DNA from: Pantoea eucrina
Lineage (GTDB): Bacteria; Pseudomonadota; Gammaproteobacteria; Enterobacterales; Enterobacteriaceae
Direction of reading: 5' to 3'
DNA: 64,000 nucleotides
Assembly (NCBI RefSeq): GCF_001691555.1
Contig: NZ_MAYN01000008.1
Coordinates: 2,528,766 to 2,592,765 of the forward strand
Shown here: one piece after another, positions 20,680 through 25,600 of the stretch
Position numbering within the stretch: position 1 is the stretch's first letter
How the letters are laid out: every line of letters begins with the position of its first letter
Notes under the pieces: generated by a model
Database searches by the model: none
Seen by the model: only the letters and a program-made list of their open reading frames with translations
Told to the model about the DNA's origin: nothing
Position numbers and translations under genes: made by a program

Positions 20680-21642
20680 TCAAATTTTCTTCAACACGGC
20701 GGGAATACCGACTTCCGCAACCGAAACGCCCGGTCTCTTCGTACCGCGACGATCCTGAATCCACATATCACCCATCATCTGGTCCAGACCGCGGTCCAGA
20801 CCGGTTACCAGCCCGGCACCCGGCGTGAAGGTCAGCTCACCGAAGTAGATCTCTTCCCCATGGATATACCAGTCAACGCGTACATAGTCGAAATCGCTGG
20901 CCAGCGTCTTACTCAGCGCCAGCGCCTTCTGCAGCTGCGGTAAAATGGGCTCAACATCCAGGCCGGTATCGCGGATCTTGTGATACGCCTCATTCAGATT
21001 ATTGACGTAAAAGTTCATCGACAACAGCGGGTTGCAGCGGTTGTAGATCACCTGCAGCACATATTCAAAATTGCCATCGCGCTTGTTGAACATGTGAAAT
21101 TTGTAGTCAATCGGCGCACTTTTGCCATCACCGATATACTGCTCTACCAGAATCCGCGGCTTAATGTAGCGATAGTGAATTTCACGCGCTTCATTAGCGA
21201 AATCCGTTTTCAGCCAGCGATGACAGTCGCTGATGATCTGCTGCTTCTTCAGCGCATCCGGCTCTTCCAGCAGGATTTCAACCATGTTAGAGCCATGGTT
21301 AGGCTTGATCACAGTATTCTTCCACTGCGACAGCGTATGGAGCGAATGCGGATCGCTGGTTTCATAGACCAGCGGGATCAGATACTCACTGCCTACCTTC
21401 TCAGCAATGTATTCACGTACTGAATACTTGTCCGACAGGCGACCATAGATTTGATAGTCGCCATACACAAATTTGCGATACAGCACCTTCTCGTTAAACA
21501 CCTTGGGCTCGCGCAGATTAGGCAGCTTACGGAATTTACGGAAGTAGTAGATGCGATCCTGCGTAGCCCAGGGCATCTTCTTGATAAAATACTGAACGCT
21601 TCTTCTGAGTTCTTCTTTCAACCTGAGCATATCTGACCTCAT
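20680..21642 (-). CDS. TupA-like ATP-grasp family protein
   Basis: 320-aa member of the TupA-like ATP-grasp family, found in surface polysaccharide clusters; the namesake works in teichuronopeptide synthesis in Gram-positives. Family features are LREPKVFNEKVLYRK, DKYSVREYIAEKVGSEYLIP, the ATP-grasp lysine in VIKPNHGSN (about residue 113), IKPRILVEQYIG and the metal-site segment YFGELTFTPGAG. A role in joining an amino acid or peptide to a glycan is an inference from the fold. It overlaps the upstream flippase gene by four bases (ATGA). The substrate cannot be told from sequence. Confidence 0.85.
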   Translation of the reverse strand: MRSDMLRLKEELRRSVQYFIKKMPWATQDRIYYFRKFRKLPNLREPKVFNEKVLYRKFVYGDYQIYGRLSDKYSVREYIAEKVGSEYLIPLVYETSDPHSLHTLSQWKNTVIKPNHGSNMVEILLEEPDALKKQQIISDCHRWLKTDFANEAREIHYRYIKPRILVEQYIGDGKSAPIDYKFHMFNKRDGNFEYVLQVIYNRCNPLLSMNFYVNNLNEAYHKIRDTGLDVEPILPQLQKALALSKTLASDFDYVRVDWYIHGEEIYFGELTFTPGAGLVTGLDRGLDQMMGDMWIQDRRGTKRPGVSVAEVGIPAVLKKI

Positions 21643-22895
21643 TTGTAGGTTTTGTAGTTGAGTGAGGAAACCTGAATTTTTTGAATGACGCCGTTTTTAA
21701 AGAAGTAATTCATTACGGTAAGGGAGAGCAGTTCAGTGATGAAGACGCTCCAGGCGGCACCCATAATGCCGTAGCCCTGAATCAGCCACCATGAGAGTGG
21801 CAGGCTGATGACCATCAGGCAGAGGATCTTCTTCAGCAGATAGTTAAACCCGCCCTCTTTGACCATGTAGCGGTAAGCTACGGTCCCCATTGCCGAAAAG
21901 CAGGTTGCTAACGACAGTAACGTAACGAGACTTCCCGATTGTGTGTACTCGTGACCATATAACGCGATGATGATCTTCTCGCCAAACATGGCGATCACCG
22001 CCAATAACAGCAATGAAACTCCCATGACATAGCCGTTCAGCCGCGCGGTGAGTTTGATTGCGGCTGCTCCACGCTCACGGAAAATTTCCGAAAAGCAGGA
22101 AGTGATGATGGCAACCGGGATAAAAATCCACGAAGCCGAAATAGTATTGGCCGCAGCGAACAGACCCAGATCGCGGGCTGAGGCGATACCGGCCAGGAAC
22201 ATCTGTGCCGCTTTCACCTGCACGGAGATAAAAATACTGGAGATAGCCAGCGGCAAACCGGCATACATCAGGTAGCGCAGATAGGTGGTGCGTTTCTGTT
22301 GCGGCGGCGCAATATCCTGATGCTCACGGTAAAAATTGATGCGCTTGATGAGATAAGGCACCAGCGTGACCGCCACGATGGACACGGTCAGCCACAGCGG
22401 ATTGAGATGCAGCCATGCGATGGTAAAGCTCAGGGCGAAGCCAAGCAGGAGTCCCACTGAGTTAGCCAGCGTATTGAGCCGCGAAGCGAGCCGTGCGTTG
22501 TTGTAGACGCTAAAAGTGTCCTGCGTTACAAACACTGAGGAGATAAATGAGGCCAGCGCAAAAGCGAGAAAATTCTCCTGCATGTTGTACCAGACCCAAA
22601 TCAAGACCGGGATGGAGGTCAGCAACAGCAATGCGAGACGCATGGTACGCGCCACGGCCATCAGACGCAGACCTTTAGGCGCACTTTTGCTGATGCGCTT
22701 GAACAGGATGGTTTCGGTACCGAAAATCGCCACGGTCTGCACCATGGAGAATAGCGAAGCTGAAAATGCCATCTGGCCAAATATGGTCGGGCCAAACGAT
22801 TTTGCCACATAGGAGGTGACAAAGATGACGCCGAACACCGAGACGACTTTTTCAGACATCATCCAGACGGCATTAGACATTACGCTCAATTTCAT
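21639..22895 (-). CDS. Oligosaccharide flippase family protein (Wzx-like)
   Basis: 418-aa polytopic membrane protein with about 12-14 hydrophobic segments and the layout of the polysaccharide biosynthesis (Wzx/RfbX, MOP) family. The N-terminal SEKVVSVFGVIFVTSYVAKS and the following FGPTIFGQMAFSASLFSMVQ are typical of the first helices. Such proteins flip lipid-linked oligosaccharides across the inner membrane. No glycosyltransferase or polymerase gene is nearby, so it must act with genes elsewhere. It is coupled to the ATP-grasp gene and transcribed away from the orphan OrfA-like gene. Codon usage is AT-richer than in its neighbours. Confidence 0.87.
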   Translation of the reverse strand: MKLSVMSNAVWMMSEKVVSVFGVIFVTSYVAKSFGPTIFGQMAFSASLFSMVQTVAIFGTETILFKRISKSAPKGLRLMAVARTMRLALLLLTSIPVLIWVWYNMQENFLAFALASFISSVFVTQDTFSVYNNARLASRLNTLANSVGLLLGFALSFTIAWLHLNPLWLTVSIVAVTLVPYLIKRINFYREHQDIAPPQQKRTTYLRYLMYAGLPLAISSIFISVQVKAAQMFLAGIASARDLGLFAAANTISASWIFIPVAIITSCFSEIFRERGAAAIKLTARLNGYVMGVSLLLLAVIAMFGEKIIIALYGHEYTQSGSLVTLLSLATCFSAMGTVAYRYMVKEGGFNYLLKKILCLMVISLPLSWWLIQGYGIMGAAWSVFITELLSLTVMNYFFKNGVIQKIQVSSLNYKTYK

Positions 22896-23422
22896 TGACT
22901 GGTCCTTAGTATTACTTACAGCAACTGCCTTGCGGTAAAACGTCCTTGAAATGAATTAACAAGCGCTCAGTGGGCCTGACAAAAATTAATAACTTCAAAC
23001 CAGGCTGGTCCGAAAAATGAGACTCGCGTCAGGATTTAGAAGAGAAATTCAGGAAAATTCTGATTAAATCTGGTGCGAATTTCAGCGGATGTAAACGATT
23101 TCAACCCGAATTCGAGACAAAAGTTTACTGGCACGCCCTCTCTTTTTTGCAAGAAAGCTGTACCGAATATCCAATGTTTGTCGTATTTTTCTGCATTTGG
23201 GATGGAATGAATCTATATCAAAAAGCCAATGCCAGGAAGATGTTCATTGGCATTCATAATAAAATAAGATTTATCCCATGATGATATTTATTCTAAATAT
23301 CTTAATTTATCCCTCGCAATTCAAATCGCGCACTTTAATACTGCATTAATACCGTTTTTGCAGTGCCAGATATTAATACAGTAATTCTCATCCACTAATT
23401 GATAAGAAAGGTAAGAGCATTT
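22896..23422. other. AT-rich divergent intergenic region
   Basis: 527 bp with no gene seen, visibly AT-richer than the flanking backbone. It must hold the promoters of the flippase gene (minus) and the OrfA-like gene (plus). Notable structures are a short inverted repeat AATGCCA/TGGCATT (23228-23254) and the larger inverted repeat at 23341-23381. No JUMPStart/ops element (GGCGGTAG) was found. Confidence 0.6.
23341..23381 (+). promoter_or_regulatory. Imperfect inverted repeat upstream of the OrfA-like gene (possible operator)
   Basis: CTGCATTAATACC (23341-23353) and GATATTAATACAG (23369-23381) pair at 11 of 13 positions, centre-to-centre 28 bp apart, ending 41 bp before the ATG of the helix-turn-helix protein. 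The position suits an autoregulatory operator; this is inference. Confidence 0.45.
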
Positions 23423-23818
23423 ATGAGAAAGTCACGATATAGCGAAGAGCAAATCACAAATGCCATTAAAGCTTCTGAAACAGGAGTAAAAGTCAGGGAG
23501 ATTTGTGAAGAGCTCGGCATTTCAGAGGCTACCTTCTACAGCTGGAAAAAGAAATTTTCAGGTCTTTCTTCTGAAGAAGGAAGAAAAATCAAAGAGTTAG
23601 AGGACAAACTACAGAATCTTACCCGTGAGCTGCAAACGTTGAGTTCAGACAAAGAGATGCTGCAGAGCGTGCTTAAAAACTTCTTTACCACCAATGAAAA
23701 GCGTCAGGCAGTCAACTTTTTGCAGACGACCTTTGATATTGGAACCCGCCGCAGCTGTCGTTTGCTCGACATTAGCCGCAGTGTTTACCACTACCCGTCA
23801 GGATCGGAAAATCGCTAA
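23423..23818 (+). CDS. Orphan IS3-family OrfA-like DNA-binding protein fused to OrfB N-terminus
   Basis: 131-aa protein with two parts. Residues 1-85 look like the IS3-family OrfA helix-turn-helix (MRKSRYSEEQITNAIKASE, ELGISEATFYSWKKKFSG) followed by a leucine-zipper-like helix (LEDKLQNLTRELQTLSSDKE). Residues about 92-131 (KRQAVNFLQ, RRSCRLLDISRSVYHY) resemble the second helix-turn-helix that begins OrfB in the same IS groups. The two are in one frame without a shift and the DDE integrase domain is missing. No terminal inverted repeats or orfB were found. It may be a decayed insertion sequence or a domesticated regulator. The start at 23423 (ATG) is preferred over an upstream TTG. Confidence 0.75.
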   Translation: MRKSRYSEEQITNAIKASETGVKVREICEELGISEATFYSWKKKFSGLSSEEGRKIKELEDKLQNLTRELQTLSSDKEMLQSVLKNFFTTNEKRQAVNFLQTTFDIGTRRSCRLLDISRSVYHYPSGSENR

Positions 23819-23925
23819 TAGATGCAAGGCCGCTGTTATTTGACTAAATGCTGAGATTTGTTCTTACCAGAAGAGATGAAGATCATTTAATTCGGCGTTC
23901 ACAATATAACAATTCGCACCATTTT

Positions 23926-23963
23926 TTCCTGATGGTTACTATCAGGGAAATGCTTCTTTTTTT
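23926..23963 (+). terminator. Possible terminator of the OrfA-like gene
   Basis: TTTCCTGAT and ATCAGGGAAA pair over nine bases with one bulged G around a 7-base loop; the T-rich TTCTTTTTTT follows eight bases later. It lies about 110 bp after the stop codon. The stem is weak, so the call is tentative. Confidence 0.4.
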
Positions 23964-24021
23964 GCGGTAAAATTGATTCACACCAGCAAAAGTCTTGTAG
24001 TATAAGCCAGTTAGACGTTGC

Positions 24022-24045
24022 CCAATCTCATTGCGGTGAGATTGG
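24022..24045. other. Perfect 9-bp stem-loop in non-coding DNA
   Basis: CCAATCTCA and TGAGATTGG form a perfect stem with the 6-base loop TTGCGG. It has no tight T-run on either side. It could be part of a small RNA or a mobile-element end; nothing supports either choice directly. Confidence 0.5.
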
Positions 24046-24369
24046 CGCTTCGTTTATTACATTAACAATGCTGTTAATGACGCTAAATCGCACCGATGTT
24101 TAATTAGCCTGGCTAAAGATCCTTCCCTGCCGTACCACTTTTGCACTCTCATTTATCCTGGTCCTGACGGCTGCGCTTAAAAATCAGTGCAGCGCCGGTA
24201 ATAATCAATTTATGATTTAATATCTCCAGGAGTTTTCCCGCGAAAAAACGTAATGAGCTTTAAACTATACGGTGTAAAAAGCGCTATCACTGGTAAATAA
24301 CATTCGGTTATTTGTCGTCAGTTTTAATATTTTTCTGTGGAATGTGACCGGGATCATTCTTAACCAAAG

Positions 24370-24441
24370 TGCCCCTGCTTGAGAGCTGGATGGTTTTACT
24401 TCCGGATAAACAGGACCATTCTCTGATTAAAACCAGGGGCA
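24370..24441. repeat. Nested inverted repeats in non-coding DNA
   Basis: TGGTTTTA (24391-24398) pairs with TAAAACCA (24428-24435), and outside it TGCCCC (24370-24375) pairs with GGGGCA (24436-24441). One side carries a 15-base bulge. The outcome is a long hairpin able to form in RNA on either strand. Confidence 0.5.
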
Positions 24442-24994
24442 GAAGAGCAGTTTTAGTCATTTTTTATGCTCGTTTCGTCTCATTGATATGCAATTACTCC
24501 CCCGTTCCGTATAAAAAACAGACGCCATGATGCATCTGTCACCAGGGTGAGCACGCCATAGCAGCAGAGCGTTATGTCAAAAGGTGATTAAAACACAGCC
24601 TGTCTGCCCGCTCAGGAGCATATAGCGGCGAATACGCAGGCGAAAAGGCGGATAAGTCAGGCAAAAGCGAGTGGGCTAAATTCTTAAAAACGCCGGTATA
24701 ACGCTGCACATTAACGCGGGCCGTTACGTCACCGGCAGTGGCATGAGGATAAAGCGGAATACGCAAACAGGCAGGCGAGCGGCGTCAGCGAAAGCCGGTA
24801 ACAGCATACTGATAAACGGGACACATCTGGCACAGCGTTAGGTGTATAAAAGAGACAACCGCTGACAGGTGATCCCGCAGAGATAACAAACCAGGCTGAC
24901 CCGAAGGTGCCGGGATAAACGGTCAGCGTTGTTAAGCTACAAAGACTTTCAGGCCGGGTAACCTCATCGCGCGCCAGAATCGCAGCAGGCCATC

Positions 24995-25025
24995 AAAAAA
25001 AAAGCCTCGCAGGCGAGGCTTTTTT
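24995..25025. terminator. Bidirectional terminator after ssb
   Basis: AGCCTCG, loop CAGG, CGAGGCT is flanked by nine A on the left and six T on the right. On the minus strand it lies 15-45 bp after the ssb stop; on the plus strand it would end transcription coming out of the accessory insert. Confidence 0.92.
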
Positions 25026-25039
25026 AACGCAACAGGGGA

Positions 25040-25600
25040 TCAGAACGGGATATCGTCGTCGAAATCCATTGGCGGTTCGTTGTTCGCCGGTGCGCTCTGC
25101 TGCTGTGGACGCTGCTGCGCGCCACCGCTGAACTGATTGCCGCCCTGAGACTGCTGCTGCTGCGGCTGCTGTGGCTGACCCCAGCCGTTGTTATTTCCGC
25201 CGCTGCTCTGGCCGCCCATCGGTGCGCCACCTGCATTGGCACCGCCCTGCTGGCGTCCACCCAGCATCTGCATGGTGCCGCCTACGTTGACAACAACCTC
25301 AGTGGTATATTTTTCCTGGCCGCTCTGATCCTGCCACTTACGTGTACGCAGCTGACCTTCAATATAGACCTGTGAGCCTTTACGCAGATATTCACCGGCC
25401 ACTTCAGCCAGTTTGCCAAACAGCACAACGCGGTGCCATTCGGTGTTCTCTTTGTTTTCACCGGTCTGCTTGTCACGCCAGCTTTCAGACGTGGCCAGCG
25501 TGAAGTTGGCTACAGCGCCACCGTTTGGCATGAAACGCACTTCCGGATCCTGACCCAGATTCCCGACAAGAATCACTTTGTTTACGCCACGACTGGCCAT
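25040..25600 (-). CDS. ssb: Single-stranded DNA-binding protein SSB
   Basis: Tetrameric protein that coats single-stranded DNA in replication, repair and recombination. The OB-fold spans residues 1-112 (opening [20 protein letters not shown]), followed by a glycine- and glutamine-rich disordered linker and the conserved acidic tip MDFDDDIPF that recruits partner proteins. Length is 186 aa against 178 in E. coli; the extra residues are in the linker. GGGAGAG stands before the ATG. It is divergent from uvrA with a LexA box between them, as in E. coli. Confidence 0.97.

Follow-up and report, generated by a model that had tools for sequence, protein, structure and literature searches.

Evidence for domestication of an IS3-family transposase fragment as a probable Rcs-controlled DNA-binding protein in Pantoea and related genera

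Introduction

Why does a gene that retains the DNA-binding portion of an IS3-family transposase, and none of its catalytic portion, persist as an undamaged reading frame in the genome of Pantoea eucrina? The gene (positions 23423-23818, + strand, ATG start) lies within the 64,000-nucleotide stretch of DNA analysed here, referred to as the window, and encodes an IS3-derived protein of 131 amino acids, designated P131, in which a single frame runs from OrfA into the start of OrfB. The original prediction, made from the letters of the window, was that P131 is a domesticated DNA-binding protein, perhaps a regulator of the surface-glycan genes beside it.

Results

P131 joins OrfA to the start of OrfB in a single frame

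The helix-turn-helix (HTH) part of P131 comprises residues 1-50 (23423-23572), with predicted helices at residues 8-19, 24-31 and 35-45, and is followed by a long helix or leucine-zipper part (residues 51-86; 23573-23680) and an OrfB N-terminal part (residues 87-126; 23681-23800) with predicted helices at residues 93-104, 108-115 and 120-123, all on the + strand. In a profile search HTH_Tnp_1 matched residues 1-70 (E = 1.1e-20), and the HTH of an IS3 OrfA is present; the expectation that HTH and zipper are kept and run on in the same frame into the start of OrfB was borne out by the single 131-residue open reading frame. An AlphaFold2 model made with 22 orthologues consisted of a three-helix HTH, a single helix at residues 51-86 and three short helices between residues 93 and 123 (pLDDT 81.5 but pTM 0.52). 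Searches for a solved structure gave no match to P131 by sequence and none by fold at E <= 0.001. The modelled architecture suggests that P131 binds DNA, and dimerisation would likewise be expected. The gene is preceded by a ribosome-binding site, AAGAAAGG (23404-23411, + strand), whose AGAAAGG core is common to the aligned orthologues (27 loci), and is followed by a weak terminator-like hairpin (23924-23950, + strand), one of two in the region against 1.0 expected.

P131 shares HTH_Tnp_1, the zipper helix and the OrfB start with IS3 OrfA/OrfAB. The nearest IS3 relatives were Klebsiella and Salmonella plasmid copies, one record of which is annotated as 'putative ISBp1', with about 55% identity over residues 1-131 in two frames (best-covered records). 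In the nearest full element among those compared, carried by a Klebsiella plasmid (L100), OrfA terminates in LKQKF followed by a stop and OrfB is read in the -1 frame, whereas the same two parts share one frame in P131; the interval between the VL and KRQAV codons, counted manually, is 27 nt in P131 and 29 nt in L100. As originally argued, the join that P131 encodes directly otherwise needs frameshifting, and in place of two frames joined by programmed frameshifting P131 has one open frame. Of the 369 positions of the NCBIfam IS3 transposase profile, only positions 1-121 were covered by P131 (69.3 bits; cut-off 160), and when the remainder of OrfB was sought in 22900-25100 with the L100 protein, only OrfB residues 6-45, already within P131, were recovered, together with two further pieces of 7-8 aa at chance level. 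The anticipated absence of the DDE catalytic domain and of the rest of orfB was thus confirmed for this interval.

P131 is a single-copy gene at a fixed site

In the genus sample a P131 orthologue was present in 56 of 60 genomes (the genome of the window included), 55 of them with a complete, open frame at 86-100% identity, the other being frame-broken (G026). The four genomes that have no P131 were G012, G014, G051 and G055, two of which are reduced (2.4 and 1.4 Mb). Among 71 loci taken from public genome contigs, 65 (L026-L090) were P131 orthologues from Erwiniaceae-type genomes, spanning Pantoea, Erwinia, Mixta, Izhakiella, Winslowiella and five records under other titles, and the remaining six were distant partial matches. 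Two of the 65, titled Enterobacter cancerogenus M004 (L033) and Enterobacter ludwigii EnVs2 (L043), showed a Pantoea-type gene and gene order and grouped with Pantoea; these are probably misnamed assemblies. Of 246 genomes drawn from the family of the window, as defined by the sampling tool, 13 had an orthologue at >=77% identity, while 14 other matching genomes showed IS-like matches of 42-56% identity. In an order-wide draw of 394 genomes the orthologue was found in five, every one within the family, and in two further genera it was found in 2 of 2 and 7 of 8 genomes. The DNA of 23100-24100 had no match in E. coli, and among 4672 matching plasmid records the best identity was 60-80% in one and below 60% in 4671. 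In place of the several copies or sites of a mobile element, each genome held a single orthologue at a single site. The IS3-like matches in the genus sample were 33-48% identical to P131, G054 holding eight of them besides P131. A match with an open frame in G086 (42% identity) was considered as a second domesticated lineage and was rejected, being a damaged ordinary IS3 copy.

P131 descends with its neighbours under purifying selection

Across the 65 loci the protein had 131 residues in 56, 130-137 in eight and 104 in one. The last is that of P. conspicua (L089:5001-5394, on a contig shared with G026), in which a one-base frameshift in an A-run near the old OrfA/OrfB junction could reflect decay or an assembly error. 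With this frame-broken sequence dropped, a counting method applied to the other 64 gave a median dN/dS of 0.035 and a maximum of 0.228 (551 of 2016 pairs with 0.1<dS<1.5), and a pooled pN/pS of 0.133. With the usable pairs chosen separately for each part, the OrfB N-terminal part was the most constrained (dN/dS 0.029 over 463 pairs; pooled 0.079), followed by the HTH part (0.045 over 1250 pairs; pooled 0.117) and the zipper part (0.096 over 348 pairs; pooled 0.167).

Distances between P131 sequences were correlated with those of the flippase (Mantel r 0.94, 59 loci), the ATP-grasp protein (0.91, 61 loci), ssb (0.80, 28 loci) and yjcB (0.67, 63 loci). With a mean distance of 0.14-0.15, P131 was less variable than the flippase (0.21), the ATP-grasp protein (0.24) and yjcB (0.29), and at 0.10 more variable than ssb (0.07). 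In a quick tree the 64 P131 sequences formed one clade away from eight IS rows (SH-aLRT 97), on a long stem that raised the program's long-branch warning and with 37 of 61 inner forks open. No full OrfB was found in the 3.2 kb 3' of P131 in any of the 65 loci. Three OrfB matches extended past OrfB residue 60; those of L029 and L062 were rejected as OrfB remains, as they continue from P131 through stops without clear likeness, and that of Mixta mediterraneensis (L053), which resembles OrfB residues 178-258 and lies on the other strand about 0.6-0.9 kb past the P131 start, is probably another IS remnant.

Domestication had been said to call for conserved length, the same neighbours and a dN/dS well below 1, all of which were observed (131 aa in 56 of 65 loci, flippase and ATP-grasp genes adjoining in 62 of 65, and 0.035), while neither a full IS at the site nor a scatter of broken frames (1 of 65) was found. 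On these sequence comparisons domestication of P131 is strongly supported, because a near-constant length, a fixed neighbourhood, one orthologue per genome, vertical descent with the neighbouring genes and strong purifying selection coincide.

A piece of the IS left end survives upstream of P131

The terminal repeats of the element had been reported as unseen, which holds for the outer tip; an inner segment of the left IS3 end, CAGTGCCAGA (23361-23370, + strand), nevertheless survives, 62 nt before the ATG compared with 61 nt in the related IS. The comparison was made with seven IS copies from six distinct places (L100 and L167 share flanks), whose left end is TGAYCTYCYCCCTGWAAACAGTRCCAG, its outer limit being taken from flank divergence; the right end of the related IS also contains CAGTGC. 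Identity to the IS copies was 5 of 18 nt in the outer part and 11-13 of 20 nt in the inner part, and in place of two terminal inverted repeats the inner left motif alone was seen. Against six IS copies, none of 5000 Markov simulations and 3 of 5000 shuffles produced a 10-nt run no more than 3 nt from the IS offset, and when the offset was left free 4 of 500 simulations produced a run of this length. The run is 12 nt long in L079. CAGTRCCRG was kept in 38 of the 65 orthologues, with diverged forms elsewhere, many of them Erwinia-type (e.g. CAGATCCAT). Within the window the motif CAGTRCCAGA occurs once, beside the P131 start, with no second occurrence near the flippase.

Around this IS-derived motif lies the inverted repeat put forward as a candidate operator, TACTGCATTAATA / TATTAATACAGTA (23339-23383; arms 23339-23351 and 23371-23383). 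The repeat is indeed present, but as eight such pairs occur in the same AT-rich 261 bp it is by itself unremarkable.

The divergent flippase and ATP-grasp genes usually, but not always, accompany P131

The divergent neighbour of P131 is a Wzx-like flippase gene (21639-22895, - strand; Polysacc_synt 27.8 bits, just below the cut-off of 28.2), downstream of which lies a TupA-like ATP-grasp gene (20680-21642, - strand); with both on the - strand and P131 on the +, the divergent arrangement was as first described. In P. eucalypti, insertions in the Wzx-like rfbX3 are reported to have reduced or altered capsule-embedded cell clusters, and restoration to have required the downstream gene as well (PMC4989142). 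By order and description, the pair probably corresponds to rfbX3 and its downstream gene and, again probably, to wzx/wceO of P. stewartii.

Flippase and ATP-grasp matches adjoined P131 divergently in 62 of 65 loci, with about 500-560 bp from start to start in most. The flippase was matched in part only in L028 and L069, and L072 and L080 carry extra DNA between the two genes. A yjcB match was found in 64 of 65 loci (not in L085) and followed P131 in all flippase-bearing loci except L085. In L086-L088 an intact P131 directly adjoins yjcB, and no flippase match was found anywhere in these genomes at E <= 1e-20; since these loci keep P131 without a flippase, P131 appears to be independent of the flippase/ATP-grasp pair. 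In G012, G014 and G055, where P131 is missing and the locus is still present, the flippase was truncated or broken. Loss of P131 in these genomes was seen together with damage to both flippase and rcsA, and capsule loss in host-bound lineages is possible.

In an alignment of 27 loci, conserved blocks lay by each start and the middle of the intergenic region was variable; as the middle is unconserved, the sequence suggests two separate promoters. One block, GAATCTATATCAAAA (23209-23223, + strand), recurs with slight variation in these 27 loci, all flippase-bearing, some 200-215 nt ahead of P131. A leader ORF (MMIFxxNxL) in the block beginning ATGATGATATTT (23278-23310) was rejected by eye, since its pattern was not codon-like: changes hit first codon positions, third positions were mostly fixed and some loci broke the frame. 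On the other side of P131, the gap to ssb (23819-25040) measured 1.2 kb here, whereas many relatives, among them L026 with its identical P131, have a gap of about 2.7-4.7 kb; its ORFs differed between the lineages compared, marking a variable spot.

An RcsAB-like box is conserved in the P131 promoter

A conserved block of the 27-locus alignment contains an RcsAB-like box, TAAGATTTATCCCA (23265-23278, + strand), in the P131 promoter; the consensus is reported as TAAGAATATTCCTA (PMC12388358). A matrix was built from rcsA genes only, using, for each of 33 Erwiniaceae rcsA genes, the best consensus match in the interval -420 to -230 (31 sites at <=4 mismatches, two dropped; 11 distinct sites). With this matrix the P131 box ranked first of 127,974 window positions, scoring 17.1 against 10.5 for the next, and it is identical to the genome's own rcsA box at 12 of 14 positions. 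A weaker RcsAB-like site, TCAGAATTTTCCTG (23050-23063, - strand), about 155 nt before the flippase start, ranked seventh of 127,974. For the highest-scoring site within about -180 to -96, the rank in its locus (65 loci, about 10 kb each) was 1 in 47 cases, 3 or better in 57 and 10 or better in all 65. The box was weaker in Erwinia-type loci, often better on the opposite strand (8-15). The upstream DNA of the flippase-less L086-L088 is unlike that of other loci; L086 carries CAAGAATATTCCTA and L087 CAGGAATATTCCTA, 1 and 2 mismatches from the RcsAB consensus, and L088 only TAAAACTTTTCCCA, with 4 mismatches. Four Erwinia-type loci (L062, L070, L071 and L081) had additional RcsAB-like sites towards the flippase, some 355-425 nt ahead of P131.

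A genome-wide pattern search (3.94 Mb), with a pattern widened after the P131 site was known, returned five places, of which one precedes rcsA, one precedes P131 and three lie on other contigs, and a reversed control pattern returned 0. An initial, mixed matrix was tested against plain shuffles of individual upstream regions; out of 300 shuffles per region, the best score was attained by 6 for L026, 17 for L079, 24 for L087 and 0 for L086. Any single locus is therefore moderate evidence, and the case rests on conservation and on the rcsA-only matrix. A conserved RcsAB box, weaker in Erwinia-type loci, is thus a property of the P131 promoter, and a response of P131 to Rcs would be expected from these sequences.

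Full-length rcsA was found in 0 of the 4 P131-less and 52 of the 56 P131-bearing genomes of the genus (Fisher 1.4e-4, kinship ignored), an association for which genome decay is a confounder. The P131-bearing genomes without full-length rcsA were G020 (contig edge), G037 (74% completeness), G017 and G041. Strict coupling of P131 and rcsA was rejected, as the association, strong in the genus, is broken by G675, where rcsA is intact and P131 absent, and by G090, which has P131 and no rcsA match.

Discussion

Of the ways in which the persistence of P131 might be explained, an IS remnant in decay whose frame is open by chance is the least credible and can be given hardly any weight. The remaining IS parts are gone, as decay would have it, and L089 carries a frameshift, but this is one locus of 65 and possibly an assembly error in an A-run; a dN/dS of 0.035 refutes a chance open frame, and near-constant length, wide spread at one site and conserved promoter blocks tell against it as well. 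That P131 is instead a host defence against IS3 elements, binding their ends or forming zipper-mixed dimers with OrfAB and so damping transposition, is improbable. Such a role would suit a protein that retains the HTH, zipper, OrfB N-terminal part and an IS-end motif, and OrfA of IS911 is described as a regulator of transposition (PMC2909936); against this, the IS3-like matches of the genus are merely 33-48% identical to P131, control by Rcs would be unexpected, and as some P131 genomes, such as G054 with its eight, hold several IS3-like matches, no exclusion is seen.

A more serious contender, which we nonetheless consider rather doubtful, is that P131 is a local regulator dedicated to the divergent flippase/ATP-grasp operon. 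The pair adjoins it in nearly all loci at a mostly constant distance, RcsAB-like sites lie in both promoters, and the flippase is truncated or broken in three P131-less genomes. However, P131 is intact and conserved in L086-L088, where no flippase was matched at E <= 1e-20, the unconserved intergenic middle suggests two promoters, and no second IS-type motif lies near the flippase. The earlier proposal of a surface-glycan regulator is accordingly divided: a link to surface glycans has become likelier because RcsAB-like boxes flank both sides of the divergent pair, while control of the flippase itself is opposed by the flippase-less loci and by the single occurrence of the IS motif.

The explanation that we favour, and regard as reasonably probable, is that P131 is a domesticated IS3-family transposase fragment acting as an Rcs-controlled and probably autoregulated DNA-binding protein. 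The IS3 origin, the fusion, the conservation, selection and fixed site, the RcsAB-like box and the IS-end remnant can be read directly in the aligned sequences. An ancestral IS3 element would have lost its catalytic domain, its right end and its outer left tip, and its OrfA and OrfB N-terminal frames would have become fused, leaving an HTH-zipper protein with a second helical region. Given the RcsAB box in its promoter, RcsB with RcsA should control transcription of P131, alongside the capsule genes. A P131 dimer would most likely bind the retained IS-end motif by its own start and repress itself, in the manner of IS2 OrfA, and would probably act on further sites in the exopolysaccharide and envelope network.

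This domestication sets P131 apart from IS3 elements proper, with which it shares the inner left-end motif at an equal distance from the start: its frames are fused, the DDE domain, right end and outer tip are gone, and it is a single orthologue per genome that descends vertically at a fixed site. The best reading, by analogy, is that P131 is a natural counterpart of IS911 OrfAB[1-149]. This truncated form is reported to bind the ends as a dimer, for which the full protein is inefficient (PMC2909936), and like P131 it has an HTH, a zipper and the region after the frameshift, with no DDE domain. OrfAB[1-149] is described as a laboratory construct, whereas P131 is natural, 18 residues shorter and under selection. 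The IS2 end is described as bipartite, with a cleavage domain outside and, inside, the protein-binding domain at which OrfA represses the promoter (PMC3299598). P131 would resemble IS2 OrfA in being a small HTH protein that binds the inner portion of its element's left end, next to its own promoter; IS2 OrfA, on the other hand, belongs to a live element, and P131 is remote from the IS2 repressor TnpA model (E 0.12). As the IS2 paper describes IS911 OrfA as having no repressor function (PMC3299598), autorepression is not general for OrfA, and for P131 it may be supposed by likeness to IS2. In a literature search by title and the start of the abstract, in which few subscription journals were covered, no domesticated IS3 regulator was found. 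TldR proteins derive from TnpB, and we know of no sequence relationship between them and P131. They are described as transposon-type proteins that became regulators of host genes, as P131 may have done, but they are RNA-guided and phage-encoded (PMC13418256).

If correct, the favoured explanation would make P131 a clear example, in bacteria, of a host gene derived from an IS3 transposase fragment and retained family-wide, with the steps readable at the locus: frames fused, catalysis lost, cleavage tip lost, binding motif retained and an Rcs site present. It is a conserved single-copy gene of plant-associated Pantoea and Erwinia, apparently wired to the slime-capsule switch, and would point to a missing node in the control of exopolysaccharide in these genera. 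A bolder form, in which P131 is a family-wide, Rcs-switched regulator of the Erwiniaceae capsule and envelope that uses the IS end as its operator, keeps the end-pairing ability of OrfAB[1-149] to bridge DNA sites and was missed by capsule transcriptomics as transposase-like, is speculative, and we would sooner doubt than expect it. P131 may have been overlooked owing to its transposase-like look, and the filtering of transposase-annotated genes from transcriptomes is a possible blind spot; the RNA-seq analysis of P. stewartii rcsA is described as having excluded genes annotated 'transposase' (PMC4689408).
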